A stretch of 44,890 nucleotides of DNA, taken from contig JADFMS010000006.1 of the NCBI GenBank assembly GCA_022563775.1, forward strand, positions 1 to 44,890, read 5' to 3'. The stretch is from Fidelibacterota bacterium (GTDB taxonomy: Bacteria > Marinisomatota > SORT01). Below the pieces are notes generated by a model. The model searched no databases. It saw nothing but the letters and a program-made list of their open reading frames with translations, and was not told the DNA's origin. Position numbers and translations under genes: made by a program. This document shows, one piece after another, positions 22,073 through 41,739 of this stretch (position 1 is the stretch's first letter; each line of letters begins with the position of its first letter).

Positions 22073-22290
22073 GCTCTTTACACACCCCGTCTTTTGGCTT
22101 CGCCAAAATCCACCCCTCTTGATAGAGGGGAATTTTTCGCATTATAGATGCGATGAGAGCGGTCAGTCTGAATCCTGGCTCGCACAATATGAAAAATAGA
22201 AATGTGGAGTACATCAACTGTGTTGATGTTGCATTGACTCAGTCAATGCACTCCAAAAGATTACCATCTAAAATCCCGACTCGCACAGTA
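22073..22290. repeat. Composite multi-hairpin repeat element, copy 2
   Basis: Positions 22073-22133 match copy 1 (13913-13973) without a mismatch. Next come TCGCATTATAGATGCGA, GGTCAGTCTG with AATCCTGGCTCGCAC, then the end module in opposite orientation to copy 1 (GGAGTACATCAACTGTGTTG and CAATGCACTCCAAAAGAT), and another degenerate tag ATCCCGACTCGCAC near 22273. Lying between convergent genes, it is non-coding. The inverted end module shows that the sub-modules move or recombine independently. Confidence 0.85.
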
Positions 22291-25941: not shown

Positions 25942-26973
25942 TTAACAAAAAAACGTTTTTGCGAGATCATACAATTCTGCCGGCACGAGCTTCAGCTCGC
26001 CCGTTGCGTCTGAAAGCGGTACCGGAACTATCTCATTGCCCTTAAGCGCAGCCATCTTGCCGAAATCGCCGTCATTCACATAATCCGCCGCCGCTAAGCC
26101 GAAACGGGTTGCCAACATCCTGTCATACGCTGTGGGCGAACCGCCCCTTTGAGTATGACCGAGCACGACCGTCCTAATTTCGTCGCCTGTCTGCTTACCG
26201 ACTTCCTTACCGACATATTCGGCTATGCCGCCGAGTCTTATATTTCCGAAATCATCCAAAGATTCGTCTTTGGTTACCACAGTGTCATCGCCGCCGACTG
26301 CTGCACCTTCCGATACGACGATAATATGAAATTTCTTTCCCGCCTCTTTGCGTTTATCGATTACATCCACTACCTCGGAGACAGACATTGGAAACTCAGG
26401 GAGCATTATGCAGTGAGCGCTGCCGGCAATTCCCGCATGAAGAGCTATCCACCCGGCATGCCTCCCCATAACCTCCACCACTATTGTCCGATGATGGGAC
26501 CTGGCTGTAGTAGTCAATCGGTCGATGGCTTCTACCGCAATCGTCAGAGCGGTGTCGAATCCGAATGTCGAATCGGTAGCCGACAGATCATTATCTATAG
26601 TCTTCGGCACACCGACGCACGCTGTGCCTTCCTCTGTGAGTTTAGTGGCTACACGCAGGGTATCGTCCCCGCCTATGGCGATAATAGCATCAAATTTGAA
26701 TCGCTTAATATTCTCTTTTACGCTTTTAAGCTGTTCATCATCCTTATACGGGTTGGTGCGGGAAGTGCCGAGAATAGTCCCGCCCTCACGAATTATTCCC
26801 GCCATATCGGATGATTTCAACTGATACACGTCACCCTCGACAAGTCCCTTCCATCCATCCCTTATTCCGTACACTTCGTGACCGTGAACATCTACCGACC
26901 GCCTGACAACACCCCTGATGGCGGCGTTCAATCCGGGACAATCGCCTCCACCCGTTAATATCCCAATTCGCAT
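25942..26973 (-). CDS. 6-phosphofructokinase, pyrophosphate-type active site
   Basis: The 343-residue protein belongs to the PfkA family: ILTGGGDCPGLNAAIRGVV at the N-terminus, fructose 6-phosphate segment VEVMGRHAGWIALHAG, and LGHTQRGGSPTAYDR. At the two positions that separate ATP from pyrophosphate enzymes, it has AIGGDDTLRVA (Asp where E. coli ATP-PFK has Gly104) and VPKTIDNDL (Lys where E. coli has Gly124). Both are the residues of PPi-dependent enzymes, so this is predicted to use pyrophosphate and to work reversibly in glycolysis and gluconeogenesis. It heads the pfk-pgk-tpiA-secG operon. Confidence 0.93.
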   Translation of the reverse strand: MRIGILTGGGDCPGLNAAIRGVVRRSVDVHGHEVYGIRDGWKGLVEGDVYQLKSSDMAGIIREGGTILGTSRTNPYKDDEQLKSVKENIKRFKFDAIIAIGGDDTLRVATKLTEEGTACVGVPKTIDNDLSATDSTFGFDTALTIAVEAIDRLTTTARSHHRTIVVEVMGRHAGWIALHAGIAGSAHCIMLPEFPMSVSEVVDVIDKRKEAGKKFHIIVVSEGAAVGGDDTVVTKDESLDDFGNIRLGGIAEYVGKEVGKQTGDEIRTVVLGHTQRGGSPTAYDRMLATRFGLAAADYVNDGDFGKMAALKGNEIVPVPLSDATGELKLVPAELYDLAKTFFC

Positions 26974-27401
26974 TGTTCAGTTCCCTCGCTCTTTTAAAAT
27001 TCTATCATTTACGCCGATTTATCGAAAAAAAATATTACAGCAACAATCAAGAAGATGCAAGAGTTATATTATGGAATCGTCCCAAACGAAAGATAATACC
27101 AAGTCAGGTGCGTCACTCTCGACACACCCCGCCCTGCGGGCACCTCTCTTTTTAGAGGGGAATTATCTAACTCTATCTCATTTGTAAACGATCCGTTGTA
27201 AGGATACGAGAGTGCGAGTCAGGATAAATCACACCCTCGACCGCCAGCTGGCGGACACTCCCCCTCAAGGGGAGAGATATTTTCTCCCCTCCTTTTCAAG
27301 GAGGGGAAATGCTGCAAGCGTAGGGGTGGTTTTCTCTTCTGCGTCTAAATATTCTCTTGTCCGAGCCGTAATGCTCGGGTATATTTAGGCAGAGGAGTTC
27401 A
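26974..27401. repeat. Repeat-filled divergent gap (composite element, copy 4)
   Basis: This 428-base gap between pfk and a small plus-strand gene holds the pfk promoter near 27032-27060. From about 27111 it has a variant of the composite element: CGACACACCCCGCCCTGCGGG, CCTCTCTTTTTAGAGGGGAAT, the tag GTGCGAGTCAGGAT at 27212, GACCGCCAGCTGGCGGAC and two nested C/G hairpins (CCCCTCAAGGGG and CTCCCCTCCTTTTCAAGGAGGGG, read as two arms around TTTTCAA). An ATTCTCTTGTCCGAGCCGTAATGCTCGG stretch near 27349 (in two arms) adds a further hairpin. I see no gene in it. Confidence 0.75.
27032..27060 (-). promoter_or_regulatory. Sigma70-type promoter of the pfk-pgk-tpiA-secG operon
   Basis: On the minus strand TTGCAT (27060-27055) and TAATAT (27037-27032) are 17 bases apart, about 60 bases ahead of the pfk ATG. 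GAGCGAGGGAACTG gives a reasonable ribosome binding site just before the start. Nothing else in the gap looks as good. Confidence 0.65.
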
Positions 27402-27620
27402 ATGACGGTAATACTCGTACTCGTTTACATTGCTCTAACACGTTTGGTAATGTGGGTGTTCGAAGATACAATTTTCAAATGGGGTGTCAAAATGTTTTTC
27501 ATTATTCTCCTCAATGCGGCGGCTACCTATCTCATGTATGATTTCATTGACGATCAGTTTCAATACGTAAGGGACACTCATAAGAATTACTATAAACGTT
27601 ACGATAACCTGACCGATTAG
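27402..27620 (+). CDS. Small hypothetical membrane protein (72 residues)
   Basis: The ATG is preceded by GCAGAGGAGTTCA, a clear ribosome binding site. Two hydrophobic helices (VILVLVYIALTRLVMWVF and VKMFFIILLNAAATYLMYDFI) are joined by a short polar turn, and a charged, Tyr-rich tail follows (QYVRDTHKNYYKRYDN). I do not recognise the family. A reading frame on the opposite strand overlaps it but lacks a ribosome binding site. It is boxed in by repeat elements on both sides and looks like a stand-alone gene. Confidence 0.6.
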   Translation: MTVILVLVYIALTRLVMWVFEDTIFKWGVKMFFIILLNAAATYLMYDFIDDQFQYVRDTHKNYYKRYDNLTD

Positions 27621-27997
27621 CAATGAAGGTAATCAGCGGTCAGGGTTACCGCCGATGGCGGGACTAACGGTAGAAAACCCTCTCCCCTTTAGGGGAGTGT
27701 CCCGTCAACTGACGGACGAGGGGTGTAACTGTCCGGTTACTTCTAAAATAAAAATATATCAACAATTACATCCCCCGCTCCTGTGGAGCACCCTTCAAAG
27801 GGGGAGAAATTCGTCATTGCTTCACCTTTATAAATCAGGTTCCCAAAGACAATAGTTAATGAAGAGTGCGAGTCAGGATTTACTCAGTTCCGACAACGGC
27901 AGTAACCCTAGCCCGCACATCCTACCACATCCGGATAACGTCCGTATCCCCGCATGCTGCGGGATTAAAAAAATCCCTGACTGCCACAAAAAATTCT
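27621..27997. repeat. Repeat cluster between small membrane protein and TauE/SafE gene
   Basis: The 377 bases carry CGGTCAGGGTTACCGCCGATGGCGGGAC (in two modules), CCCTCTCCCCTTTAGGGGAG, CCCGTCAACTGACGGACGAGGGG, a CACCCTTCAAAGGGGGAG block, the tag GAGTGCGAGTCAGGATT at 27863-27879 and CCCCGCATGCTGCGGG at 27949-27964, ending CCCTGACTGCCAC. All are modules of the dispersed families, in a new order. No start codon with a ribosome binding site was found, so it is non-coding. Confidence 0.75.
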
Positions 27998-28786
27998 CTA
28001 AATCATACCGCTGCCAAGCAGCAAAGCGAGAGTGAGCAGCATCCCTCCAACCAAGTTTCGTACGTGACGCATCCTTACCTTCTTAATCAGACGATTACCT
28101 ATAAAAGAACCGAGAAACGCCGTCAACACTGCTGCGGATATTAAATTCACTCCTCCCGAATCAACAATGGTAGTCATAGTTCCTCCGAAAAACAGACTGC
28201 CGTAGACAGCAACCCGCGACAGGTCAACTACAACCGAACAAACGACTCCGGTGCCTATGAACTTGGTTTTATCATCAATAGAACGGATGAGAAATGCGCT
28301 GCGAAGAGCGCCCTGATGACCCGAAAGTCCACCGAAAAATCCCGAAAGAGCGCCGCCAAACGGAATATACTTCTTCGGAAATGAGAGCTCATCGAATCGT
28401 TTAGACAGTTCCAACAGAGCAAAAAACATCATGAGCGAAGCAACAACCAATTTGAGAATCGTTAGTTCGCGAACACCATAGAATTCGTATGAATACAACG
28501 GCGCAGATGAAGCGATCCGAGTCAACAGATAAGCGCCGAAAGCCGAAAAGACGAGTCCTGGGATTATAAAACGAACGGCGATCTTCCAATCAGCATACCT
28601 GCCTACAAGCATTAGTTTGAACAGATTATTAGAGAGATGAACAACCGCTGTCATCGCCACCGCCGCCTCAACAGGAAAGAAAATCGCAAAAACGGGCATC
28701 AGCAGAGTTCCGATACCAAACCCGGAAAAGAGTGTCAAAGCAGCCACCACGAGGGCGGCAGCCATTACAGACAAATACATTAACAT
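27998..28786 (-). CDS. TauE/SafE family sulfite/anion exporter
   Basis: The 262-residue protein has eight or so membrane helices in two related halves, each opening with a glycine-rich motif: ALTLFSGFGIGTLLMPVFAIFFPVEAAVA and GGALSGFFGGLSGHQGALRSAFLIR. The latter, with SGHQGALRS, is the signature of the family that exports sulfite, sulfoacetate or related anions. Length is normal. It stands alone on the minus strand; a terminator hairpin lies 60 bases upstream, isolating it from the genes at 29-30 kb. The substrate is not predictable from sequence. Confidence 0.9.
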   Translation of the reverse strand: MLMYLSVMAAALVVAALTLFSGFGIGTLLMPVFAIFFPVEAAVAMTAVVHLSNNLFKLMLVGRYADWKIAVRFIIPGLVFSAFGAYLLTRIASSAPLYSYEFYGVRELTILKLVVASLMMFFALLELSKRFDELSFPKKYIPFGGALSGFFGGLSGHQGALRSAFLIRSIDDKTKFIGTGVVCSVVVDLSRVAVYGSLFFGGTMTTIVDSGGVNLISAAVLTAFLGSFIGNRLIKKVRMRHVRNLVGGMLLTLALLLGSGMI

Positions 28787-28837
28787 CGGTTCATTCTCAT
28801 AAAATATTAATTAGAGAATGAATATATGACTACTCTA

Positions 28838-28870
28838 ATAAAATAAAAAGCCCCGAGTTTCCTCAGGGCT
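28838..28870 (-). terminator. Rho-independent terminator (minus strand)
   Basis: On the minus strand AGCCCTGAG-GAAA-CTCGGGGCT forms a nine-base-pair stem with a GAAA loop and one T-G pair, followed by TTTTTATTTT. It would stop leftward transcripts from the tail/HicAB side before they reach the TauE/SafE gene. A leader attenuator for the TauE/SafE gene is a less likely alternative. Confidence 0.8.
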
Positions 28871-29264
28871 TAATTTTCTCATTTATTCATCAAATACGGG
28901 TCAATATGCCCACCCGTATGCCGTCCATTTCATTATCTTTATCCTCATTTTTCGTTTACATTTTTATATACGTAAATGTGAAGATTTTGTTCCAATTTGG
29001 TTATTATTTACCGTGCGGGTTAGAGCTTGCCCTGACCGCACGACAAGTTCAAAATTGGTTATTTATGATTAATTGAATAATATTTATCTTATTTACATTT
29101 CATTTCCTGTTCAATTTCCTGATTTTACCGCTAATTAATTACATATTAGCAATTTAAATTAATTTTCATTTCTACTTTCATTTCCGATATTATTTCCGTA
29201 ATGATTCGTCTGAAAACAGTTATAACTTTTTATGATTTACGATGGACTAACTGAAAGATTGGAA
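28871..29264. other. AT-rich non-coding stretch before the tail cluster
   Basis: About 390 AT-rich bases without a credible gene. A single repeat module is visible near 29012-29040 (CCGTGCGGGTTAGAGC then TTGCCCTGACCGCAC, whose ends GTGCGG/CCGCAC pair). The local base composition is lower in GC than the neighbouring housekeeping genes and similar to the HicAB-SecB segment, which suggests that the two arrived together. Confidence 0.5.
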
Positions 29265-29405
29265 CTATTGCAAAGACGGATTCTCCCGCACATTCACTAC
29301 GAGAGTCACCTCTTCTAATTGACGGTCGTCCACCCTTCTGTCCATTAGGTCTACTAATTTCGAATCAAATATTTTGCGGGATTGTTTCCAATTAACATCA
29401 GATAT
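29265..29405 (-). pseudogene. Orphan 3' end of a second copy of the tail hub gene
   Basis: On the minus strand a frame of 46 codons ends LVDLMDRRVDDRQLEEV and TLVVNVRENPSLQ before a TAG. It matches the last 29 residues of the intact tail gene at 30817 with three changes (Gly to Asp, Ala to Thr, Pro to Ser). Over 29261-29352 the DNA matches 30813-30904 at 88 of 92 positions, and the match continues four bases past the stop. Upstream the protein resemblance decays but stays recognisable (KQSRKIFDSKLVDLM against KNRKKTDTYIADLM). This is a relic of a diverged copy, not a fresh duplication. Confidence 0.85.
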
Positions 29406-29425
29406 TCAATTACAAATATAAGAAT

Positions 29426-29869
29426 CTACTTTAGGATCGGTAATGTTAAAGAAGGTAGATTCATTTTTGAGACTACAGATTGAACTAATTCTCGGAAGTA
29501 TGGCCAAATTTGTTTTGGCAATGTAATTTCTTTGTATAATTCCCAAAATTCTTTAGGTATACTACCTTTGAATGAAAATATTGAAGAATACTCTGCTTTA
29601 ATTATCAGAGGATTTTTCCCTCTCCCAGGAATAGGTGTATCAAATATTAAATTTCCCGAGATAATTACCTCCCCATCTTTTTTATTTATGGATTGGACCG
29701 TATACCTATCTTCTATCCTGATACTTACTTTATCTTTATTTACTAGATTCTTCGGAATGACTGATGCCTCTAAATCTATTAGCTGAATTTCAGATAACTC
29801 GACATTTTCTAAGAAATGCCTATACTGTGATGGAGATATTAATTTTTGATATTCCTTAAGTTGGCTCAT
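29426..29869 (-). CDS. SecB-like chaperone of a toxin-antitoxin-chaperone (TAC) system
   Basis: The 147-residue protein has the SecB size and layout. A beta-rich middle part (VSIRIEDRYTVQSINKKDGEVIISGNLIF, IIKAEYSSIFSFKG) is followed by a C-terminal helix, IWPYFRELVQSVVSKMNLPSLTLPILK. That closely resembles the SecB end (LFPYARE...LV...FP.L.L.P). The start overlaps hicB by four bases, so the three genes form one coupled unit. In known TAC systems a SecB-like protein folds and protects the antitoxin. It is not the housekeeping SecB: low similarity, no acidic tail, toxin neighbours. The call rests on pattern recognition and should be confirmed by profile search. Confidence 0.7.
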   Translation of the reverse strand: MSQLKEYQKLISPSQYRHFLENVELSEIQLIDLEASVIPKNLVNKDKVSIRIEDRYTVQSINKKDGEVIISGNLIFDTPIPGRGKNPLIIKAEYSSIFSFKGSIPKEFWELYKEITLPKQIWPYFRELVQSVVSKMNLPSLTLPILK

Positions 29870-30411
29870 ACATACTCTTCCATATTCTTTTTACTTGGAA
29901 TTCCGATGTCATAAATCCTTTGATATCTAGGCCACTCTTCCTCGAGGTACATTGAGGTTTTTTTTATCGATAATTGAACTGTGATTTGATTCATTCTATA
30001 ATTTATCAAGTTACTAACTTTGCTCCAAATATCTTGTGAAGCATCTAATTCGCCAATTTTACGAGAAATGATAGAAGAAATAAATTGATTCACACTAACT
30101 CCATCTAGTTTTGCTGCTTCTTTAATATCTCTGTGGAGTGGTCGTGGGATACGAAGCATTAGATTGCCGCTCGGTAATTCGTCTTCATAGGATGGAGATT
30201 TGATTTTTATTCCATCTTCTAAAAGTAATTCAAATAGCTCTTTTTTATCCTGCTCGAGCAATTTAAGGGCAGCTTCTATCGTATTGGCTGTGGCATAACA
30301 GGTACCACGACCCAAATCAGGATAAAATACAGTCCAGGTATTATCATGATGATTATATTCAGACTGTATGTTATACTTTAGCGCTAAATAATAGTTAATG
30401 TCCTTTTTCAA
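29866..30411 (-). CDS. hicB: HicB-family antitoxin with C-terminal extension
   Basis: The 181-residue protein has the partial RNase H-like HicB fold at the N-terminus (WTVFYPDLGRGTCYATANTIEAALKLLEQDKKELFELLLEDGI). A ribbon-helix-helix DNA-binding part follows (GNLMLRIPRPLHRDIKEAAKLDGVSVNQFISSIIS, about 82-117). Ordinary HicB ends near residue 130 to 140; here about 45 more residues continue, with aromatic clusters MYLEEEWPRYQRIYDIG. That extra tail is where a chaperone-addiction segment would sit, and a SecB-like gene follows at once. It neutralises HicA and probably represses the operon. It begins four bases after hicA. Confidence 0.8.
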   Translation of the reverse strand: MKKDINYYLALKYNIQSEYNHHDNTWTVFYPDLGRGTCYATANTIEAALKLLEQDKKELFELLLEDGIKIKSPSYEDELPSGNLMLRIPRPLHRDIKEAAKLDGVSVNQFISSIISRKIGELDASQDIWSKVSNLINYRMNQITVQLSIKKTSMYLEEEWPRYQRIYDIGIPSKKNMEEYV

Positions 30412-30414
30412 TCG

Positions 30415-30717
30415 TTATCCTCCATGTAATTCTCTAATGCTCTTATATAATACTTTTACACCATCTTCTCTAATAACATCCTTTGTACCTTTTGAGTGAC
30501 CCTTCGAGATCTTAAGAATTCCATACTTAAAGTATTCAGGTGATATATCCAGACAAGAGTGAGACCAACGAGATGAGGTATGGCTTGAACTACCTCCTCT
30601 ATTGGTAAAGCCGAGTCCTTCGAGTACATTTTCTGCTTCATCATATGACAGTTCTTTTGGGGACCGAGACTGACCCAACCACGACTTTGCAATTCTCAGT
30701 GCCTTTTGTTTATTCAT
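30415..30717 (-). CDS. hicA: HicA-family mRNA interferase toxin (divergent)
   Basis: The 100-residue protein has a dsRBD-like HicA core: YDEAENVLEGLGFTNRGGSSSHTSSRW, where the Gly-Ser-x-x-His region carries the expected catalytic His, then LKISKGHSKGTKDVIREDGVKVLYKSIREL, matching the HicA strand and C-terminal helix. The first 20 residues are an extra N-terminal segment compared with the usual 60 to 80 residues. It is the first gene of the set, ahead of hicB. HicA toxins cut mRNA in growing cells. Family assignment is supported by its partner more than by identity. Confidence 0.65.
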   Translation of the reverse strand: MNKQKALRIAKSWLGQSRSPKELSYDEAENVLEGLGFTNRGGSSSHTSSRWSHSCLDISPEYFKYGILKISKGHSKGTKDVIREDGVKVLYKSIRELHGG

Positions 30718-30726
30718 TCATTAATA

Positions 30727-30755
30727 ATGATATCATATATAATATCATTTGTCAA
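30727..30755 (-). promoter_or_regulatory. Promoter and palindromic operator of the HicA-HicB-SecB set
   Basis: On the minus strand TTGACA (30755-30750) and TATCAT (30732-30727) are 17 bases apart. The perfect palindrome ATGATATCAT (30727-30736) covers the -10 box, and ATGATATTAT, a near copy, lies in the spacer. Such overlapping palindromes are typical for antitoxin autorepression. No Shine-Dalgarno is seen before hicA, which suggests a weakly translated toxin. The 16 bases around the -35 box are identical to those at the Fic gene promoter. Confidence 0.75.
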
Positions 30756-30816
30756 GTATTATTTACGGTGTTAACTGAGAAATGTTTAGCTATAAATGAT
30801 ATTATTTTTTAAGGAA

Positions 30817-32730
30817 CTATTGCAAAGGCGGATTCTCCCGCACATTCACTACGAGAGCCACTTCTTCTAATTGACGGTCGTCCACCCTTCTGCCCATTAG
30901 GTCTGCGATGTATGTATCGGTTTTCTTCCGATTTTTGCTTTCTTTTTTAAGTCTGCGCGGAAACCTGTCACTGAAATTATCTATTTCAAACTCCGCATCC
31001 CACGGTTCGAGTACGTTCCAGCGTTTCGATTGTATCCTTGCGGTTATGTCTATCCCGAGTTCGTCATCCTGCAGGGTAATGGTATCACCGACTTCAAGCT
31101 TATCATACGGATACCCGTCCGGATCCGCCTCATAAAGGTCAATCGCTGAAACGGTGTACTTAACCTTTGCGTTCTTGGCTGATTGGAGAGAGTCAAATCC
31201 TTCATCCCAGAGGATTCGCGCGCCGCTTATAGGATAAAATTCGTTGGGAACGCTAATTTTAGAGGACTTTTCGAGAATCACCGAATCTATATAGAAGTCA
31301 GTTCCAATCGAATTGGAGAGTATCTTTATGATTCCTCCGGTTCCCTGTGCCGTGATTCCCTCTACCATAAGTTGAGTCCAGACTCTTGTTACGCTTGTCT
31401 GAGCGGTTTTTCCGGAGCTCGACGGTTGATCAGCGACACCGTCAAACAGTTCGAGTTTTACATTACCTGTAGTTACATACAGCCATACGTATAAGGAATA
31501 TACGCTATCCAGGTCGAGTGTTACGGATTGTTTCATTCCCTCTCCGGGATCTGCATCGTTAATCAGCTGACTCTTGGAACCGTATTTGACGAAATTGGTG
31601 TTTATGTTAGCTGAAACGGGGAATGCCGCCCCAAGCGTCACTACCGACCAGTTATCCGCTATTCCTGAATTGTAATCTCCCGAAAAATCGGTGTTCAAAA
31701 GTAAATTTCTCGCCTCGACCCTTGATCTGTTAAAATACGTTGATTCTATTGTTCCGTAGGAGCCTATCGAACCAGCATCCCTGATCTGTTTGATATCGGT
31801 CCCGGAAGCATCGGCGACTATCTTAAAGTAATCTCCTACCGTAAGTCCCGAAAGCGCCGTAGTCAGAACAACTTGGCTCCCTGCTATCGAGTCCGTTATA
31901 AGCCTCCTCGCTCCGATCGTGGCGCTTCCTAAAGCTCTTGTAACTTCCATATAGTAGTTGTTCCAGGAGTCGTTCGAGGGTACTAACCGCTGATGTGCGG
32001 ATATGGTTGTACCGGATAGCGCGGAAATGATATGTTCTGCGCCTTCCGTGCCGAGAATGGGATCACCACCAATATCGGCTGGCGGTTCTCCACCGCCGAC
32101 AGGATAGACCACGTTAAAGAGTTCCCGTGTATCAATATTCTTACGAATGCCTCTGAGGTTCCGCGCATAACGGATACGAGCATCCCGCAGACCCCCACGC
32201 GTCATTATGCTGACTGTTTTGTCGTTATGCACTATCAGATCGGTTCCAAGCCGCTCCCTTACCTCGTCGAGGAGGTCAAGAATTGAGTTGTAATTCAATA
32301 CAATATCCAATTTCGTTGCTGGGCTTATCGTTCCCACAGAAAAAGACGATTCCCCGAGAATTTCGTTTATCACCGTTGAAGGCTCCGCCTGTACATAAGG
32401 AGTCCATTTCGGGTAGACTTCGTCAAGCATATCGTATTTCAGATGTTCGCATTCAAGCCGTCCTTCCGGGGGACTGTTCCCAATTCGCAATTCGTGTTTT
32501 TGCCGAATCCTGAACGATTCATAACTCTCATCATCGAGGTTTACAACCCGGATCACTTCAAGCAGGTTAATCGAACTCCACAACTCAGTACTGAGTGTTA
32601 TGCCTATGGATAAGGCGTTTATGCCGTTTAGTTCATCGTTTCGTTTAGCATAAATGATCATTGCTGTCGGAAGTACCGCTTCCCTGGCAGAGTTGGCAGC
32701 GTCATACAGCTCCAGTCTGAATTCAGCCAT
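30817..32730 (-). CDS. Phage tail hub / Tal-like protein with inserted carbohydrate-binding-like module
   Basis: This 637-residue protein follows the distal tail gene, the place of the Tal or baseplate hub protein in siphophages. The N-terminal part (1-235) resembles prophage tail endopeptidase/gp37-like hubs, with EVRERLGTDLIVHNDKTVSIMTR and ELFNVVYPVGGGE. A beta-sandwich insertion at about 340-490 (NLLLNTDFSGDYNSGIADNWS up to DFYIDSVILEK) looks like a CBM4_9-type module and resembles one in the neighbouring Dit protein. The C-terminal part ends in VVNVRENPPLQ. No peptidase motif was found. The last 92 bases recur at 29261-29352. Confidence 0.75.
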   Translation of the reverse strand: MAEFRLELYDAANSAREAVLPTAMIIYAKRNDELNGINALSIGITLSTELWSSINLLEVIRVVNLDDESYESFRIRQKHELRIGNSPPEGRLECEHLKYDMLDEVYPKWTPYVQAEPSTVINEILGESSFSVGTISPATKLDIVLNYNSILDLLDEVRERLGTDLIVHNDKTVSIMTRGGLRDARIRYARNLRGIRKNIDTRELFNVVYPVGGGEPPADIGGDPILGTEGAEHIISALSGTTISAHQRLVPSNDSWNNYYMEVTRALGSATIGARRLITDSIAGSQVVLTTALSGLTVGDYFKIVADASGTDIKQIRDAGSIGSYGTIESTYFNRSRVEARNLLLNTDFSGDYNSGIADNWSVVTLGAAFPVSANINTNFVKYGSKSQLINDADPGEGMKQSVTLDLDSVYSLYVWLYVTTGNVKLELFDGVADQPSSSGKTAQTSVTRVWTQLMVEGITAQGTGGIIKILSNSIGTDFYIDSVILEKSSKISVPNEFYPISGARILWDEGFDSLQSAKNAKVKYTVSAIDLYEADPDGYPYDKLEVGDTITLQDDELGIDITARIQSKRWNVLEPWDAEFEIDNFSDRFPRRLKKESKNRKKTDTYIADLMGRRVDDRQLEEVALVVNVRENPPLQ

Positions 32731-32733
32731 CTG

Positions 32734-35700
32734 TCAGAGCCACTTCTTATTATAACTTAACTTTATTCCGGCATTGGCAACTTTATTGAACAGAACAGAT
32801 TCATTGCTATCCATATTCGGGAAGAAAGAACCTGCATCCATTGACGCTATTGCGTTCGTAAACGAGTCCGCCGAGGAATCGGCAAACTCAATCGTTTCTT
32901 TCTCGCTGTCTATCAATAACTTATCACCGTCAGATAAAGTTTTGGTAAGGCTGATTTTAGCGTTGTTATTTTTAATCGGTTTGTTCTGATTCGAGTATTT
33001 CAGCACTTCAGTGGCAGATAATTCTCTTGATAGCAGACAAATTTCATCAATTATCGCATCCGGAAATTGAGTCTGAGTGTTATCGCTCAGATATAACGTC
33101 CCCGGATTTCCTGTGAGTGGAGCAGCATTGGAATTCAGAACACCGCCTAAAACACCGTTGATATATATTCTAACTCCGGTGGAGCCGTAACTGGCTATAA
33201 CAGACAACAGTTCTCCATCTTCGAACGTTTGATTTCCTGCTTCGGCATCATAGTCAACTCCTGCTGCACGTTTTCTGAAAATGAATTTGTCGTTGGTCCA
33301 ATCGTAACTCAGCCGGAGATAGTTATTCGTGTCATACTGAAGTTCATATATAACCGGATCATCGGTTTCATCAGCCCATGTGGCGCCGAATTTCGGTTTT
33401 AACCAGCAGATAACAGATCCCTCGTTCTTATTTCCCGTCATGCTCCACGAAAGCGTGTCTCCCCCGTCCAAACGCAACCCATAACCGAACTTTTCTTGTG
33501 AATATGAATCTATCTCCGTTGTGGCTTTCGATGATGCGTTGGCTGTAACGGTGTCGAGTTTGATTAAAAAGACATCATCAATATAATAAGTTGTTCCAGA
33601 AAGTTGACAACCAATTCTTAAATTTCCCGTACCATCCGAACTTATTTTAAATGTCCATGAAAGTTTCTGATAATCGGTTGTAAGTGTAAACTGTTTTTCT
33701 GTAGAGGTAAGTCCCGTGAAATTTTCTACTCTTATTCTGAAATCTTCCCCCCCGCTTCCGCCTTTTGCCCAAATCGAAACGGTATACCAAGTATTTGTGA
33801 CTAAACTAAGACCAGTTTGTTTAATGCCATCGCCCGTCGAATTATTTACTAACTTTTGAGCCGCCATTCCCGAATGAATCAAACTGTTTTCTTCTGTCGG
33901 TGTTGGAGCACCCCTTAAAGTCCAACCCGGAGCTAATCCCGAAACATAAGTGCCCTCCATTGAGCTATTATTTACTAAACTAACCTGACAATCCATCTGG
34001 TCTATATAAATGATTGCGCTTGCAATTTGGTCGTCTTTTCTGAATCTAAACTCGTGTGCCACCGCCCCGTCAGCCTCGAAAGTTCCCTCGAAATAAAGCC
34101 AAACATCCTCTGCATAACTTGTTCCCATATCATCTGTGCCGGTGTTCAACCGTCGAGTATGAACGGTTGAATTGCCAACTATGTCGAGATATAAATCATC
34201 CGCACCCGTAAACTTATCTACGTATATCCAAAACCTATAAAAATAATCTTGATTGTTCACGAGTGTGCCGGTTGACACATGAGCATAACTATTTACGGGT
34301 GCGAATCCAGCCCAAGCAATCTTAGCGGATTGAGTGTCATATTTTATGATAGTAGATTCGTTTGAGAGAGTAATATCGGCATCGCTTTTGCTCCATTCAG
34401 CAGAAGGATTATTCTCCTGGTCGCCATCTGTGAACTTATTATCAACCCACGGATATTGAACGCTCACAGGATCGCCACTCGACAGTTCTCCGGCAGAAAG
34501 TAATTTAGTATCAGGTGTAACATACGGCTCTACGCCTGCGCCTGAATTTCGCAAGTCTGAAATTTCGGCATTCGTTAAAGCTCTTTCGAGTAATTGGTAA
34601 TGTATCAATCCATCAAATTGTTGGCTGTCCGCCGCCTGATTTATTCCGATTCTCAGTTGAGTGGGCGTTCCCTGCGGAGTTCCTAAAGCTGTAGACTTTC
34701 CTTGAACAGCCGTATCCAATTGTAACCCTGAGAAATTAGTTCCGTCAAATTTATTATTTATATCCCACCTTAACGCTATAAAATACCATTCGCCTGCCGT
34801 AAAATTTGCCGACGTGACCGATATCAAATTATCGATCGGAACATTATTCCATTCTACCCTGCTGAATAAATTATTAGAGTCATTCTTGGCAAGCAGAATC
34901 CGATTATTTGCATCAAACTGAAATTGAAATATGCCGTGTGTTAGACCGTCATCACCGTCAAAATAAGGTTTAACCCATATAATTATAGTCCCTTGATACG
35001 TATTAAGGTTGATGTAATTCTCATTTCTAATTTGTGTTCCTCTGTCGAAATAAACTAAATCCTTGCCTGTTATTTGTATGGCTTTTGACTGTTGACTCGC
35101 GAGAGATTTTCGAGTCCTATATCCAAAAGCCGAAGAGAAATTTCCTGATATGGTCGAGAGAGTCACATCGCTGAGGTTATCGTTATAATCAAAGTGCGCT
35201 ACTCCAACCTTGTCCCCTTCGATCAACATCGGATTCGTGACCGCTCCGCTCAGCTCAATAATCGGTTTACTTTGTACATTGCCGGTACTGAAAACCTTGA
35301 ACTCATCCGCGTTTCCAGTCATCGTAGCTTCCGTAAGAGCGTTGGAGATTGCAAACGGCTCGTCACATCTAAATCTCGCGCGAATAAGTTTCATCTCGTT
35401 ACGCATCCACTGATGAGAAATATCCTGCAATTCAAAAACAGAGTCGAAGACCGCATTGTAATGCCTGTCGGATTCGTCACCGAATTCTAATCTGCCGTAT
35501 TTGAACCCATCCGTGATGGATTCTTCACCCGGCGACACTGTCTCATCTTCCATAGCGAAGAGAGACTTAAGGTTCTCAATATTACTCATCAAAGTCGCAT
35601 GGGAAACACCCTCGATGGTCCCTTCAATCTCAATGATTCTCGGTTTATACGTCTGCTTGAATGCTATTCTTCCATGTCGACCGGGGATGGCGACGCTTTT

Positions 35701-35802
35701 AACCTCAACAGGAGGTTTACCACGCCCGCTGACACGCGTTATCTCCGTAAAGAGGTCGCGAATTGATTTGCCGTTCCACTTGATCGAATCGGTGAATGCC
35801 AT
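32734..35802 (-). CDS. Phage distal tail (Dit)-like protein with two LamG-like and two CBM-like modules
   Basis: The 1022-residue protein begins with a Dit-like domain (WNGKSIRDLFTEITRVSGRGKPPVEVKSVAIPGRHGRIAFK, RIIEIEGTIEG). This ring-forming protein joins the tail tube to the hub. After it come a LamG-like lectin domain (about 255-420), two CBM4_9-like sandwich modules (about 450-750), and another LamG-like domain (about 790-940), with AEWYFIALRWDI and TGVRIYINGVLGG as landmarks. The end (about 960-1022) resembles the start of a second Dit half, split by the lectins. These modules suggest glycan binding on a target cell. It is separated by three bases from the hub gene. Confidence 0.78.
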   Translation of the reverse strand: MAFTDSIKWNGKSIRDLFTEITRVSGRGKPPVEVKSVAIPGRHGRIAFKQTYKPRIIEIEGTIEGVSHATLMSNIENLKSLFAMEDETVSPGEESITDGFKYGRLEFGDESDRHYNAVFDSVFELQDISHQWMRNEMKLIRARFRCDEPFAISNALTEATMTGNADEFKVFSTGNVQSKPIIELSGAVTNPMLIEGDKVGVAHFDYNDNLSDVTLSTISGNFSSAFGYRTRKSLASQQSKAIQITGKDLVYFDRGTQIRNENYINLNTYQGTIIIWVKPYFDGDDGLTHGIFQFQFDANNRILLAKNDSNNLFSRVEWNNVPIDNLISVTSANFTAGEWYFIALRWDINNKFDGTNFSGLQLDTAVQGKSTALGTPQGTPTQLRIGINQAADSQQFDGLIHYQLLERALTNAEISDLRNSGAGVEPYVTPDTKLLSAGELSSGDPVSVQYPWVDNKFTDGDQENNPSAEWSKSDADITLSNESTIIKYDTQSAKIAWAGFAPVNSYAHVSTGTLVNNQDYFYRFWIYVDKFTGADDLYLDIVGNSTVHTRRLNTGTDDMGTSYAEDVWLYFEGTFEADGAVAHEFRFRKDDQIASAIIYIDQMDCQVSLVNNSSMEGTYVSGLAPGWTLRGAPTPTEENSLIHSGMAAQKLVNNSTGDGIKQTGLSLVTNTWYTVSIWAKGGSGGEDFRIRVENFTGLTSTEKQFTLTTDYQKLSWTFKISSDGTGNLRIGCQLSGTTYYIDDVFLIKLDTVTANASSKATTEIDSYSQEKFGYGLRLDGGDTLSWSMTGNKNEGSVICWLKPKFGATWADETDDPVIYELQYDTNNYLRLSYDWTNDKFIFRKRAAGVDYDAEAGNQTFEDGELLSVIASYGSTGVRIYINGVLGGVLNSNAAPLTGNPGTLYLSDNTQTQFPDAIIDEICLLSRELSATEVLKYSNQNKPIKNNNAKISLTKTLSDGDKLLIDSEKETIEFADSSADSFTNAIASMDAGSFFPNMDSNESVLFNKVANAGIKLSYNKKWL

Positions 35803-36038
35803 TTACACCTCTATATTATTGCCGTTAACTCACTGCTTTCACTGTATGCAGAATTGTCAGGTTCGGAAATTATGTGCCGGTTAGGGTCCACCGCCGATGG
35901 CGGGACTTTTGCTTGCCCTGACAGCTACCTATCACGTCTTTGCGAGGAGTCCTGTCAGTTGGCGGACGACGTGGCAATCTCGTGCTATACTCATCTTAAA
36001 GTCTGAGATTGCTTCGACCTGACAGCACTCATTACATC
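35803..36038. repeat. Repeat cluster inside the tail operon
   Basis: At 35884-35925 stands CCACCGCCGATGGCGGGAC with TTTTGCTTGCCCTGAC, nearly identical to 41090-41126. It is followed by a member of the GTCATTGCGAGG family: CACGTCTTTGCGAGGAGTCC, GACGTGGCAATCTC at 35968-35981 and the counter-arm GTCTGAGATTGCTTCGACCTGAC. The internal CAGTTGGCGGACGACG is shared with other gaps. It separates the 266-residue gene from the Dit gene and contains no gene. Confidence 0.8.
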
Positions 36039-36839
36039 TTACCGCCTCATAGACCTCGCAAGTTCTAAATTGTTGAGATAAAGCTGCAGAGCGTTTTTCT
36101 TTTGGGTTACCGGTCCGAGCCTGTCGCTAAGTTTTTTCAGACGCGCGTCACGAAGCTTCGTAAAGTCCGACTCGATGACTTGCATAGAGGCGCTGTCCTT
36201 CTCCATGTCACCTACGGCTAACGGATTGGTCTTCACCTTCACCGTTGGCCAGACCGATTCAAAATAGTTAATGAGGCGGGTGTTGTTCTCCGCAAGTGCG
36301 GTTTTATACGTTTCCAATGCTTCAAGCGGGTAGTGCCGGATCTGTTTGGTGAGTTCGCGCTGTTCCTCTATCTGGGCGATCTTTCGCAGGTTCATAGCCG
36401 TCTCGAGCGCAAGTTTCCGGCTGACCTTATCGTCTGTCAGCACCGCGTCTCTTATAGACGTTTTTGCTTCTTTCAGGAGTTTTTGATACGCCCCTTCTTC
36501 CTCATCATCAGCGTAGATAACAGACTGCTCCTCCGCTCGCAACTCTCTGAGACTGTTTTGTATCTGCGCGAGATGCTTTGCTTCTTCTGCTTCGAAAAGA
36601 GAATTAAAACCGGATTTTATCTTCTCTGATTCCATCTTCGTATACTCTTCCGAATAGCGCTCATCCTTACCCAGAGCCGATAACTCATTCTCTCTTTTAA
36701 CACGCAGTTCTTCGGTGCGCGCATGATGTTCCTCCACCAAACCGGGGAAGAGACTTTTTACTCCGCTTATAACATCCCCGCCGTATATCGGCTCTTCCTG
36801 GTCAGTGACTCCAATCTTCTCTTTCGGTTCTGTAGTCAT
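36039..36839 (-). CDS. Alpha-helical tail-cluster protein, possible minimal tape measure or chaperone
   Basis: The 266-residue protein is almost wholly helical and charged (EEHHARTEELRVKRENELSALGK, EAEEAKHLAQIQNSLRELRAEEQ, LDKLSDRLGPVTQKKNALQLYLNNLEL-type stretches). It has no signal peptide and no membrane segment. It sits between the frameshifted tail chaperone and the Dit gene, where the tape measure gene normally lies. Its length would correspond to a very short tail if it were that ruler. I do not recognise its family; a tape measure, a tape-measure chaperone or an unrelated filler protein are all possible. Confidence 0.45.
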   Translation of the reverse strand: MTTEPKEKIGVTDQEEPIYGGDVISGVKSLFPGLVEEHHARTEELRVKRENELSALGKDERYSEEYTKMESEKIKSGFNSLFEAEEAKHLAQIQNSLRELRAEEQSVIYADDEEEGAYQKLLKEAKTSIRDAVLTDDKVSRKLALETAMNLRKIAQIEEQRELTKQIRHYPLEALETYKTALAENNTRLINYFESVWPTVKVKTNPLAVGDMEKDSASMQVIESDFTKLRDARLKKLSDRLGPVTQKKNALQLYLNNLELARSMRR

Positions 36840-36867
36840 TTATTTACCTCATTATTGATTTTATTTA

Positions 36868-36991
36868 GATGAGATTGCCGCAGTCGTTCTCCAGAGCAAG
36901 TGGAGAACTCCCTCGCAATAACCGTGAATTTTCCTTCCTCCGTCATTACGAGGAATCCGCAGCTTACCGATGACGAAGTAATCTCAGATTC
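36868..36991. repeat. Inverted-repeat element inside the tail operon
   Basis: One arm reads GATGAGATTGCCGCAGTCG...CCCTCGCAATAACCG, the other CCGTCATTACGAGGAATCC...GACGAAGTAATCTCAGATTC. These are the GAGATTGC and GTCATTRCGAGG ends of the inverted-repeat family in a rearranged order; GTTCTCCAGAGCAAGTGGAGAAC forms an internal hairpin (two arms around AGAGCAAG). It lies between two tail genes that would be expected to be contiguous. Confidence 0.75.
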
Positions 36992-37013
36992 AATTCTTAT
37001 GTGTTCCACACTG

Positions 37014-37589
37014 TCAAATCCGCAACCCGGCTGCCCTGAGTTGGGCGATAGTTTCGTTCGCCAAATCCTCCGCTACTTCTGTCAGCTGCGCACTATCTGC
37101 GAGGTTGATCTCTCCGTTGAAAATATTATTTATCTCAATTGCGGGAAGGTTTGTTCCGGATATGTCCGACCCTCCGGCAGGTAGCGATGTTCCCGGCAGA
37201 ATTCCCGAAGAATTGAACCGAGTTCTTATAAACCTCCTCCATATTTCGAGCGACTCCTGCTGAATTGCCCTGCTCGTATTGAGGATACCGATAAGAAGAT
37301 TAGCCTGAATCTCCGTGATACCGACGAAATGCCTGAACGAAGTCGAGCGTTTCGGGTCATTGTCATCCTCCTCATTTAAGCGTTCTCCGCCGTCATCGGG
37401 ATTCGGCTTATGCTTTCTCGGACCGAACAGGCTTCCCTCACGCCTCGCGGACTCTATGTAAAGTCTCAATTCCTCATGCGTACCGGTAACGGAAAGTATC
37501 GCCTCTCTCACATCCGCGAGAAAGAAACCTCGACCGTTAAAATCGCCGACGCTCTCACCGAGCATAGAATTAATCCGATGCTGATTCAC
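37014..37589 (-). CDS. Short tail-cluster protein at the tape measure position
   Basis: The 191-residue protein overlaps the T-frame of the tail chaperone by 20 bases, exactly as tape measure genes overlap gpG-T in siphophages. It has a polar, disordered centre (FGPRKHKPNPDDGGERLNEEDDNDPKRS), then a helix (RHFVGITEIQANLLIGILNTSRAIQQESLEIWRRFIR) and a C-terminal tail with IEINNIFNGEINLADSAQLTEVAEDLANETIAQL, an ending common in tape measure proteins. Typical tape measures are several hundred to over a thousand residues. It may be a much reduced tape measure, or the C-terminal part of one. Confidence 0.5.
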   Translation of the reverse strand: MNQHRINSMLGESVGDFNGRGFFLADVREAILSVTGTHEELRLYIESARREGSLFGPRKHKPNPDDGGERLNEEDDNDPKRSTSFRHFVGITEIQANLLIGILNTSRAIQQESLEIWRRFIRTRFNSSGILPGTSLPAGGSDISGTNLPAIEINNIFNGEINLADSAQLTEVAEDLANETIAQLRAAGLRI

Positions 37590-37806
37590 TCTTACCTCCG
37601 AATTCGGTTAGCGATCCCAACGATGGTTTCTTTATCAAATCATATTCGGGCTGAAGGTCATAGGCAGGATATCTGTCCATAATAAGTAATAACTGCGGAT
37701 ACGATAATTTATTCAGAATATAGTCCACGCGCCAATTGGTCAGCGACACTACCGTAGCTACTATATCCGCCAACTCGAATCTCAAAGAACCCTCAGCCCG
37801 CTGATT
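37570..37806 (-). CDS. Tail assembly chaperone T-domain, reached by -1 frameshift
   Basis: This frame is open from the slippery site at 37812-37806 to 37570 and encodes NQRAEGSLRFELADIV, TNWRVDYILNKLSYPQLLLIMDR and a Lys/Ser-rich end. It has no ATG and no ribosome binding site; only a TTG at 37785 could start it alone. Its position after the G frame and before the tape measure, its size and its frame relation (-1) fit the T part of a lambda-type gpG-T. The frameshift product would be about 209 residues. Confidence 0.75.
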   Translation of the reverse strand, partial: NQRAEGSLRFELADIVATVVSLTNWRVDYILNKLSYPQLLLIMDRYPAYDLQPEYDLIKKPSLGSLTEFGGKSESASD

Positions 37807-38198
37807 TTTTTTAATATGTCTTCTAAGTTGTGCATATTAAGGAGCTTGCCGACAACCTCTTTGAGATTGTCGAAACCGGTCTTCTCGAGTTCATCCGTTT
37901 TCACCGTTGAATTAGCTGCCTCGAAGACTTCATTCTCATCAAGGAACATCTGCACAATGCGTATGATATGGTCGAAAGGCATATCAAGCAGTTTGTCCAC
38001 AGTCGATTCAATCTCGTCGTCATTTTTTGATTTCAGAGATTCAACCGCTATGTATACTCCGTCTCTGTATTTTGCAATTGATTTCGAAATCGCCCGCATC
38101 TGCGTAAGCGTTCGGGGCTTGACAGTGTAGCTGTTCTCCCCTATCGACACCTCTTCAGGCTGAGCCGTGATAACAGCCGCCGCTTTTTCATCTGTCAT
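37782..38198 (-). CDS. Tail assembly chaperone G
   Basis: The 138-residue protein has the properties of gpG-like chaperones: acidic and helical after an N-terminal beta segment (EEVSIGENSYTVKPRTLTQMRAISKSIAKYRDGVYIAVESL). FDHIIRIVQMFLDENEVFEAANSTV lies in the middle. Near its C-terminus it meets an A-run that can shift ribosomes into the T frame. It is upstream of the short tape-measure-like gene and downstream of the toxin pair. The function is to hold the tape measure during tail assembly; the assignment rests on position, size and frameshift. Confidence 0.75.
   Translation of the reverse strand: MTDEKAAAVITAQPEEVSIGENSYTVKPRTLTQMRAISKSIAKYRDGVYIAVESLKSKNDDEIESTVDKLLDMPFDHIIRIVQMFLDENEVFEAANSTVKTDELEKTGFDNLKEVVGKLLNMHNLEDILKKISGLRVL
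37805..37812 (-). other. Slippery site for programmed -1 frameshift
   Basis: Eight A follow TT on the minus strand. Read in the G frame as TTA-AAA-AAA-ATC, the heptamer A-AAA-AAA is exactly in register for simultaneous slippage of two tRNAs. After the slip, reading continues as AAT-CAG-CGG-GCT into the T frame, which is open. The G frame itself stops 22 bases further on. A downstream stimulatory stem was not established. Confidence 0.8.
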
Positions 38199-38317
38199 AA
38201 AAAATCCCTCCTATATTAACGGAGGGAGTAAGGGAGAATCTGTTTTTAAGAGTATGAGTCAGGTTAAATGGAAAATTGTAGGAGTCAGGATTTCGCATTG
38301 ACTGCCTTTATATTACT

Positions 38318-38713
38318 TCAAATTAGATCAAGATGAATTTTTATGCCTTCATCAATAATATTCATCTTATTATTATCCAGATTACCGATACTGCCTATCA
38401 CCCGTGCTTTGGAAATAGTCCGAATCTGGTCACACAGCGCAAAACATTTAATATTGACGCCGCCCTCACCTTTTCCGATAGGAATATGCACTAACGAATT
38501 ACGTTTCAAGTTCGAAGCGGAAAAGGGAACGAAAGTTACATTCGGGCTTAATTCATTCGATATTTCTTCTTGAATGTTTACTGCAGGACGTATTTTCCCG
38601 ATCTCGTACTTGTCAAATGGTGGATCACAATTCACCAGGAATACCTCACCTCTAACAAACTTAGGTGTCGGTAGATTAGAACGTTTTAATTTACCGAATC
38701 CGGTTTTTTTCAC
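38318..38713 (-). CDS. MazF/PemK family mRNA interferase toxin
   Basis: The 131-residue protein shows the PemK/MazF fold signature: FVRGEVFLVNCDPPFDKYEIGKIRPAVNIQEE at the start, VTFVPFSAS, HIPIGKGEGGVNIKCFALCDQIRTISKARVIGSIGNL in the middle, and a closing helix. The residues equivalent to the MazF Arg in RPAV and the Ser/Thr in TISK are kept. It is cut from the antitoxin by a four-base overlap and lies between the tail tube gene and the G chaperone, so it interrupts the tail operon. It would cut mRNA when its antitoxin is depleted. Confidence 0.88.
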   Translation of the reverse strand: MKKTGFGKLKRSNLPTPKFVRGEVFLVNCDPPFDKYEIGKIRPAVNIQEEISNELSPNVTFVPFSASNLKRNSLVHIPIGKGEGGVNIKCFALCDQIRTISKARVIGSIGNLDNNKMNIIDEGIKIHLDLI

Positions 38714-38973
38714 AACCCTTCAACGCTCACATAATCCCAAACTTCGGCTTCTTTCTCCAATATTTCGTTATTTGCATTATACGCTTCTCTGAGATTTTGT
38801 TGAATTCTTTCTCTTTTAGTTTTTTTTACTATACTCCTTATAGATTCACGTAATAGCTCCGCTTTTGAACTATTCAGGTAATCGATTGCCTGCTCGAATT
38901 CAACGTAGAGATCTATCGGCAAACCAAAGTTAATAAACTTTTGCTCTTTTGCAATTTTGGATAAAGTACCCAT
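38710..38973 (-). CDS. Antitoxin of the MazF/PemK pair, ribbon-helix-helix type
   Basis: The start was placed at the ATG at 38973, because AAGGAG lies eight bases before it; the upstream ATG at 38991 has no such site and its codons contain that AAGGAG. The 87-residue product has an RHH-like region (FINFGLPIDLYVEFEQAIDYLNSSKAELLRESIRSIV) and a polar C-terminal helix with EKEAEVWDYVSVEGL for toxin binding. It overlaps the toxin gene by four bases. Upstream, GATATGCATAT, TTGCATATTGATATG and ATATTATATAT form a cluster of inverted repeats suited to autorepression. Confidence 0.8.
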   Translation of the reverse strand: MGTLSKIAKEQKFINFGLPIDLYVEFEQAIDYLNSSKAELLRESIRSIVKKTKRERIQQNLREAYNANNEILEKEAEVWDYVSVEGL

Positions 38974-39102
38974 ATCATTCTCCTTTTTCATATCAAAACA
39001 ATATATAATATTTCATATCAATATGCAATACATAATATGCATATCGGTCTGATATATAACTTTCTTAAGTATTATCATAGATGAGGATGATAACTCTAAC
39101 AC

Positions 39103-39245
39103 TGTGCGAGTCAGGACGTCAATGACGCTCCTCTTAGCCCTGAATGCCTATCGCATCAAAGATGCGATAAGTTCCCCTCTAAAAAGAGGGGTGGATTCGA
39201 GACACAGCAGTGTCGAGAAGACGGGGTGTATAAGGAGCAGGAATT
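39103..39245. repeat. Composite multi-hairpin repeat element, copy 3 (inverted), in the tail cluster
   Basis: Read on the minus strand it gives the same module order as copies 1 and 2: GCTCCTTATACACCCCGTC, a hairpin (CTCGACACTGCTGTGTCTCG), ATCCACCCCTC with TTTTTAGAGGGGAA, ATCGCATCTTTGATGCGAT, and finally GTCCTGACTCGCAC. The first hairpin differs from copies 1 and 2, so the stem has been exchanged while its shape is kept. It separates the tail tube gene from the toxin pair. Confidence 0.85.
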
Positions 39246-39266
39246 TACCGTTATTACAATAGGTAT

Positions 39267-39758
39267 TTAAGCCGTCGCATCGTTTATAGTGAAGAAAGTG
39301 TCTGCGCCGTCTGCCGAAGGGAGTATCTCGAACTCAACGGGAACGAATGTGATACCGTCTCTCTTGAACGGTGATTCGGAATTGCCGAGCGAGACTATCT
39401 TTGCGAAAGTGAGTGTCCGGTCGAAGCCCGCCGGGTTGCCCTTTGACACAACGAAACTTCCCGTTACGGCTCCCCTGTCGGTTCCTCCGAAAGTGAGTGT
39501 CTGTCCCGAGATGCCGCTTGCCGGCAGTCCGTAACCGACTGCGAAGTTTGCCAACGCCGCTTCTGCGACATTCGCCTTTCCGAAGAGTCTTCTCCGGACA
39601 AGTTTCTTCTTCTGAACTCCCACCGACTGGTCAACCATCGCATCGAACCACTCCTGCTCCTGGCTGAGTACGAAACCGCCTTCCGTTGCTCCTAAGGCAA
39701 CTCCGTCGATGCTCAGATCCCCCTGCCCTACAAGTATGTTGTCAGTTGTTATAGCCAT
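39267..39758 (-). CDS. Phage major tail tube protein
   Basis: The 163-residue protein is beta-rich and of the right size for a siphophage tail tube monomer. It starts AITTDNILVGQGDLSIDGVALGATEGGF, then LSQEQEWFDAMVDQSVGVQKKKLVRRRLFGKANVAEA, and ends with TLTFAKIVSLGNSESPFKRDGITFVPVEFEILPS, the usual tube-fold order. It lies after the tail terminator gene and before the G chaperone, as expected. It was probably once next to G; a toxin pair and a repeat element now separate them. Confidence 0.78.
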   Translation of the reverse strand: MAITTDNILVGQGDLSIDGVALGATEGGFVLSQEQEWFDAMVDQSVGVQKKKLVRRRLFGKANVAEAALANFAVGYGLPASGISGQTLTFGGTDRGAVTGSFVVSKGNPAGFDRTLTFAKIVSLGNSESPFKRDGITFVPVEFEILPSADGADTFFTINDATA

Positions 39759-39803
39759 ATTTTCCTCTCATGTTGAAGTTTCATTTATAGACAAGTTGTC
39801 AGG

Positions 39804-39818
39804 GTGCGAGTCAGGATT
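39804..39818 (+). repeat. Element tag GTGCGAGTCAGGATT
   Basis: A solo copy of the 15-base tag that borders composite elements elsewhere (27211, 27865, and reversed at 20393). It is followed by CCTCCTGACCACCAC, which partly pairs with it. It is in the 155-base gap between tail tube and tail terminator genes, which otherwise shows no gene. Confidence 0.65.
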
Positions 39819-39913
39819 CCTCCTGACCACCACAAAATAATCAAAAACCGTAATGCGGCATCCTCCGTTAATCAAGGGGGAATCTGAATTAACGCTCTGA
39901 GGCGCTTGCCGCA

Positions 39914-40928: not shown

Positions 40929-40974
40929 ATGCTTCCAATAAATTTTGTTTGCGAATCAGGATATCGAAATTACA

Positions 40975-41126: not shown

Positions 41127-41135
41127 GCAACTCAA

Positions 41136-41624: not shown

Positions 41625-41739
41625 CTTTTCGCTCTCCTATGTGTCAGCCTACCGACTGATTTCTATCTATTCGATTTATGTCAGGGTTGGTTGGTCTCAA
41701 AGAAAGTTGAGACGGGTGTGTCAGGAGTTGGAAGTTACC

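Follow-up and report, generated by a model that had tools for sequence, protein, structure and literature searches.

In the toxin-antitoxin-chaperone (TAC) systems described by Bordes et al. 2016 (PMC5105189), SecB chaperones accompany HigA, MqsA and, less commonly, HicB antitoxins. Mmet-TAC, a HicAB-SecB system of Methylomonas methanica, is functional and chaperone-controlled, and residues 119-159 of its HicB were used as the addiction sequence (PMC5105189). Mtb-HigBA1-SecB-TA (Rv1955-1957; PMC5105189, PMC6377645) uses the HigB and HigA families, while in the TAC known as CmdTAC / PD-T4-9 the trigger is a phage capsid protein and the toxin is the ADP-ribosyltransferase CmdT (PMC11618068). Here we describe a three-gene cassette in a 44,890-nt stretch of DNA from a Fidelibacterota bacterium (GCA_022563775.1, contig JADFMS010000006.1, positions 1 to 44,890; hereafter the window). 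The cassette, which encodes a HicA-like toxin, a HicB antitoxin and a SecB-like chaperone, is very probably a HicAB-type TAC; it closes a phage tail module, with a tail gene of that module on one side and chromosomal genes on the other.

In make-up the window cassette resembles Mmet-TAC in its HicA, in a HicB with a C-terminal extension and in its SecB-like chaperone, but differs in standing behind a phage tail gene and in having a HicB tail about 20 residues longer. With Mtb-HigBA1-SecB-TA it shares the SecB-TA fold and an aromatic C-terminal antitoxin tail, although the toxin and antitoxin families differ; with CmdTAC / PD-T4-9 it shares a SecB-like chaperone, although its own toxin is HicA-like, and PADLOC found no match to the window toxin and antitoxin, CmdT included. 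The HicA-like toxin and the HicB N-domain and ribbon-helix-helix recall classical two-gene HicAB, which, unlike the window cassette, lacks a chaperone and in most cases an aromatic tail as well. The first-pass annotation, made from the sequence of the window, had called a HicAB-based TAC inside a phage tail cluster a rare variant; the type was already known (PMC5105189), and what is unusual is its location among phage structural genes together with a duplicated gene end. The suggestion, made in the same annotation, that the system senses phage or envelope stress is best treated as speculation. No title in our literature searches concerned HicAB-SecB genes set within a phage structural cluster, an absence that we claim no further than these searches, and the passages of PMC12619734 consulted treat HicB and SecB separately.

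The cassette occupies the minus strand from 30717 to 29426, where all three genes of the first-pass annotation were recovered as intact, tightly coupled small open reading frames (ORFs) in the order HicA-like, HicB, SecB-like. Its features, in window coordinates, are:

30727..30755, minus strand: promoter-like site TTGACA-17-TATCAT with an extended -10, putatively serving the hicA-hicB-secB operon
30415..30717, minus strand: HicA-like toxin gene (100 aa, ATG start)
29866..30411, minus strand: HicB antitoxin gene (181 aa, TTG start; PF05534, PHROG HicB-like, weak PDB profile matches)
29866..30054, minus strand: part of hicB coding for the tail (last 62 aa and stop), a putative chaperone-addiction region that includes WPRYQRIY, proposed from the tail comparison below
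29426..29869, minus strand: gene of the SecB-like dedicated chaperone (147 aa, ATG start; Pfam SecB, AF2 model, Foldseek)

Three nucleotides separate the hicA stop from the hicB start, with a GGAGG ribosome site within the final hicA codons, and the hicB and secB-like ORFs share 4 nt at the hicB stop. The promoter-like site (30755-30727) has 11 of 12 matches, lies 9 nt ahead of hicA and scores highest in the region; since a scan of that region found no excess of promoter-like sites (7, against 7.7 in shuffles), it is the place and score of the site that favour it. A near-palindrome at 30720-30743 overlaps the site and is a plausible candidate for a HicB operator.

That such an arrangement arose by chance is very unlikely, because most genomes with a SecB match in one class keep the same three-gene order. 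Protein searches returned, self excluded, three SecB, two HicB and two HicA relatives, and a profile search of genome contigs led to one locus, L001. Genomes with a SecB match number 3 of 395 in the phylum of L001 and 18 of 391 in the class (those 3 included), and in 13 of the 18 a HicA-HicB pair lies directly upstream of SecB (G001, G264, G032, G561, G635, G526, G422, G415, G403, G504, G572, G633 and G654). These 13 and the window make up the 14 HicAB-SecB loci compared below. The other five SecB loci are cut by a contig end (G418) or neighbour another small ORF pair (G638), a HEPN gene (G466), a HEPN-like gene by eye (G483) or a CmdT-like gene (G547).

The third gene product, for which a SecB-like C-terminal helix had been proposed, shows similarity to SecB over most of its length rather than in the last helix alone: Pfam SecB (PF02556) matches residues 33-143 at 25.5 bits (E 1.3e-5), just short of the cut-off of 26. 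NCBIfam export-SecB equivalogs score 16.8-23.7 bits, far below their cut-offs of 102.8-181, and the PADLOC PD-T4-9_C chaperone profile matches weakly (E 3.2e-4). An AF2 model built from a six-sequence alignment (pLDDT 85.9, pTM 0.76) predicts a SecB fold; Foldseek against the PDB places four chains of 5mtw at the top (TM 0.71-0.80, E 1e-9 to 6e-9), followed by SecB of H. influenzae and E. coli. The entry 5mtw is the M. tuberculosis SecB-TA structure, solved together with the antitoxin addiction peptide, and identity to that chaperone is 17-18% in the fold alignment. Both profile similarity and modelled fold thus bear out the SecB assignment.

HicB matches Pfam PF05534 over residues 81-114 (38 bits, cut-off 21) as well as a PHROG HicB-like family, and a profile search against the PDB picked up HicB and Arc structures weakly (E 0.0015-0.0043). 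An N-domain (about 12-74) and a ribbon-helix-helix (about 81-117) are followed by a C-terminal tail (120-181). The aromatic extension reported earlier is present, with 7 aromatics including 2 Trp; its length past the ribbon-helix-helix is about 62 residues, not the roughly 45 first given. Within the tail, WPRYQRIY resembles the WHRLSSYR core of the Mtb HigA1 tail (PMC6377645), with W-x-R...Y in both. This pattern arises in 271 of 20000 shuffles of the window tail and is found in none of the 13 other SecB-linked tails, and judged on sequence the likeness is possibly due to chance.

The link between tail and chaperone emerges from a comparison of HicB proteins with and without a SecB neighbour. 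The 18 genomes with a SecB match hold 18 HicB-domain matches: the 13 beside SecB are frames of 178-208 aa, and the 5 elsewhere are of 89-119 aa. A HicB-domain match occurs in 65 of the 391 genomes drawn from the class (77 matches by table count, 13 of them those beside SecB). From the 64 SecB-unlinked matches, 20 were fetched, picked among the longer frames and including the ten longest—a choice that works against the tail-chaperone hypothesis—and 19 were compared after one with its gene cut by the contig end (L111) was dropped. The 391-genome scan gave no SecB profile match in the 20 genomes, and no ORF starting at most 200 nt downstream of these HicBs had a convincing SecB score (best E 0.0038, 3.6 bits; the contigs of L109 and L111 end at once). 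All 14 SecB-linked tails have 49-78 residues and 4-13 aromatics, whereas the 19 others have 1-65 residues (median 22) and a median of 0 aromatics, with 13 having none; rank tests give 2e-5 and 1e-6, uncorrected for relatedness. The aromatic share still differs (0.008) when the SecB-linked tails are set against the seven SecB-less tails of at least 25 residues. Within this one class, HicB tail and chaperone gene are for the most part present or absent together, and the window tail itself was not found without a chaperone, though some SecB-less relatives keep tails. Two of these relatives, L098 and L103, carry hicA genes of the window kind and, to judge from sequence, may have lost SecB. As HicAB relatives without SecB and with shorter or mostly aromatic-poor HicB tails, L098, L100, L102 and L103 (the last with 6 aromatics) are candidates for chaperone loss.

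Outside the class, a wider SecB alignment found one such trio among viral contigs: in L186 (IMG/VR), HicA, HicB and SecB genes at 1995-3364 lie between those for the terminase large subunit and portal (HicB and SecB called via PHROG and tblastn, HicA by eye). This cassette has 52.5% GC against 69.0% in its flanks, and no flanking repeat was seen. Scans of viral contigs with HicB, the first SecB alignment and the tail protein found nothing. By tblastn, window SecB matched 6 of 72,556 plasmid records, including one from Thermus brockianus; the single match among 50,697 phage records is in a Klebsiella phage, where it sits with an MqsRA-like pair, not HicAB. HicB reached at least 80% query coverage in none of the 30 phage and 11 plasmid records matched, and its listed matches (20 of the 30 phage records, all 11 plasmid records) stop at residue 111-119, one at 128.

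Several of these loci deserve mention in their own right. PHROG 20189 and 16879, phage families with no assigned function, are matched by the SecB-like chaperones of both the window and L186, which offers a name for them. At L050 (5136-6371) and L051 (4877-6392), a HEPN gene (by Pfam in the former, by eye in the latter) stands with an antitoxin candidate and a PD-T4-9_C-like chaperone, which points to a TAC with another toxin family. The Klebsiella phage 2b LV-2017 locus (L185, 2691-4207) is an unannotated low-GC trio by phage regulator genes: a SecB-like gene stands with two ORFs, one of them toxin-like and the other, by eye, MqsA-like. In the Thermus brockianus plasmid (L187, 2839-3399), a SecB-like gene annotated as a sigma factor follows a helix-turn-helix gene, with DUF1156 and DUF499 genes on either side. 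The trio at L019 is near a HerA-SIR2 pair.

The window cassette is lower in GC than its flanks (34.7% versus 44.7%), as are 12 of the 14 HicAB-SecB cassettes (exceptions L019 and L040), and the 3' end of the adjoining tail gene is duplicated around it:

30817..32730, minus strand: tail protein gene (Prophage_tail, Tal-like; PF06605, PHROG minor head and tail families), 3' end duplicated around the cassette
30813..30904, minus strand: direct repeat, upstream copy, comprising the final 88 nt of the tail gene through its stop, and 4 nt beyond
29261..29352, minus strand: direct repeat, downstream copy, 92 nt with 96% identity to the tail-gene 3' end

The two copies differ at 4 positions, all transitions, 3 of which change an amino acid. 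Repeats also flank L019 (128 nt, 88%, the 3' end of the upstream gene to 1 nt past its stop), L001 (214 nt, 89%, from a dispersed small ORF) and L046 (146 nt, 78%), and two other SecB-TACs, L049 and L050, have repeats of 50 and 61 nt. The repeats differ in sequence from locus to locus; in two, the window and L019, they consist of the upstream gene's 3' end and run beyond its stop codon by 4 and 1 nt. The L001 repeat has 10 matches at about 8 places in G001, and in the sibling genome G561, whose cassette is on a different contig, that repeat again stands next to the cassette. The small-ORF repeat family that flanks the L001 TAC also flanks a gene with a RecG-C-terminal-like domain in the same genome (L015, 3431-5770).

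With 800-nt flanks, manually set cassette limits and the cut locus L048 excluded, a flanking repeat of at least 48 bits was found at 6 of 18 SecB-TAC loci and 4 of 14 HicAB-SecB loci (5 of 17 and 3 of 13 without the window). Of 1200 overlapping draws of random intervals from the same genomes (20 regions), 41 reached at least 35 bits and 35 at least 50 bits, and among 19 two-gene HicAB controls, 3 of them with short flanks, one had a repeat (L107, 216 nt). Fisher tests against these two-gene loci give 0.037 for all SecB-TAC loci and 0.089 for HicAB-SecB only; binomial tests against the random rate, window excluded, give 2e-4 (5/17), 0.001 at 50 bits (4/17) and 0.009 (3/13). These statistics are rough, as neither draws nor loci are independent (L041-L043 share neighbours). 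Empty sites were sought at two loci. At L019 the search went through the adjacent peptidase gene, which had a match in 48 of 57 genomes; in none of the 9 relatives examined was the repeated gene found close to it. At L001 there was no clean empty site: G561 has the downstream gene without a cassette, but its upstream sequence is wholly different. A diversity-generating retroelement does not fit the window repeat, as the downstream copy lacks an adenine at 2 of the 4 differing sites, and no reverse transcriptase candidate was noticed among the 27.5-33 kb ORFs, read by eye only. Integron attC sites were also considered for the flanking repeats, by eye only.

Taken together, these observations are suggestive of insertion with duplication of gene ends. 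The competing view, that the 92-bp repeat arose by chance or survives from an earlier gene duplication and is uninformative about the arrival of the cassette, is a serious contender, though one we would not bet on. The 10 of 14 HicAB-SecB loci without a repeat (3 with a flank below 300 nt), or 12 of 18 across SecB-TAC loci (3 with short flanks), speak for it and against insertion, as do the random draws, the repeat at L107 where SecB is absent and a Fisher value of only 0.089. Repeats at a third of the SecB-TAC loci, the binomial values without the window, the locus-specific repeat sequences and the use of upstream-gene 3' ends at two loci argue the other way.

For the cassette as a whole, we regard as highly likely a SecB-dependent HicAB-type TAC with an aromatic addiction tail, inserted in the manner of a moron behind the tail gene. 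This explanation builds on the operon, the HicB domain, the predicted SecB fold, the low GC, the repeat and the cross-genome link between tail and chaperone, and it agrees with the addiction segment proposed in the first-pass annotation, although dependence on the chaperone is inferred. By family, HicA would be an RNase-like toxin acting on mRNA, the HicB N-terminal domain would bind HicA and the ribbon-helix-helix would repress the operon. The aromatic tail would hold the antitoxin unfolded or protease-sensitive until a SecB-like tetramer binds; were the chaperone drawn off, HicB would be lost and HicA freed. The AT-rich cassette would have been inserted right behind the tail-gene stop codon, probably by recombination that left the end of the tail gene duplicated.

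Several points weigh against this explanation, the toxin foremost, as HicA is the weakest of the three identifications. The catalytic His of HicA lies in a G-S-H-like turn; GGSSSH at residues 41-46 sits where it is expected, with the alignment gapped there in three relatives. The window protein had no profile match of its own in the Pfam, NCBIfam, PADLOC or PHROG scans, and HicA_toxin (PF07927) reached only E 0.047-0.22 (12.1-14.3 bits, cut-off 27) on the relatives L003, L047 and L098. Its fold match is modest, Foldseek with the model gave nothing at E <= 0.001, and PDB profile searches from HicA alignments gave nothing relevant. The lack of a curated HicA match lends some weight to a decayed module, a piece of phage debris whose toxin or antitoxin has lost its function, as do the missing capsid, terminase and integrase families among the 10 module proteins scanned and a downstream repeat copy that looks unconstrained. 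We consider decay very improbable, however: none of the three coupled frames is broken, a promoter-like site and a ribosome site are present, and HicA proteins 99% and 89% identical to that of the window exist on other contigs. Also on the debit side, 7 of the 19 SecB-less HicBs still have tails of 25-65 residues, and that of L103 has 6 aromatics. Such tails would suit an ordinary two-gene HicAB that merely neighbours an independent SecB, used in export or phage tail assembly, with the HicB tail as a variable linker; the TAC chaperones tested by Bordes et al. (PMC5105189) can, moreover, substitute for export SecB. This too is improbable, given that the gene order of the trio is constant across 13 genomes and holds in a viral contig where the neighbours are unrelated, that all 14 SecB-linked HicBs compared have a long aromatic tail, and that window SecB misses the export-SecB cut-offs widely and has SecB-TA as its top fold match.

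The remainder of the module also invites comment. Upstream of the tail gene are a Dit-like gene (32734-35802), an Ig-domain protein and a protein matching a head family (Pfam, PHROG). The PHROG scan found major capsid, terminase and integrase families in none of the 10 module proteins, and the rest of the window was only read by eye; with tail and connector-like genes and none of these families recognised among the proteins scanned, 30817-41624 may be a tail-only remnant or a tailocin-like module. At the DNA level 38000-44890 had no match in phages, and Rfam had none in 26000-44890. Amid the tail-module genes, 38318-38991 (36.8% GC) holds a PemK/MazF-like toxin gene with a small, weakly Arc-like antitoxin candidate, and at the module's other edge a Fic-domain gene (41862-43052) matches several phage families of unassigned function. 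A dispersed repeat of about 50-94 nt recurs in both orientations at 13913-14006, 22073-22166 and 39150-39239, and a second pair lies at 35879-35935 and 41082-41139.

A bolder picture, unlikely and drawn by analogy with CmdTAC, is that HicAB-SecB cassettes are mobile phage morons at the ends of structural genes, as behind the tail gene here and between terminase and portal in L186, and that they spread through recombination in which the neighbouring 3' end is duplicated. The chaperone would act as a sensor: nascent structural proteins of a superinfecting phage would titrate it off HicB, much as CmdC is titrated by T4 capsid protein, and the freed HicA would cause abortive infection. More broadly, this work adds a set of HicAB-type TACs, and the two cassettes in phage structural clusters suggest testing phage capsid protein, the one TAC trigger described in the literature consulted. 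The gene-end duplications, if they hold up, would point to a way in which modules of this sort travel when they carry no integrase themselves.
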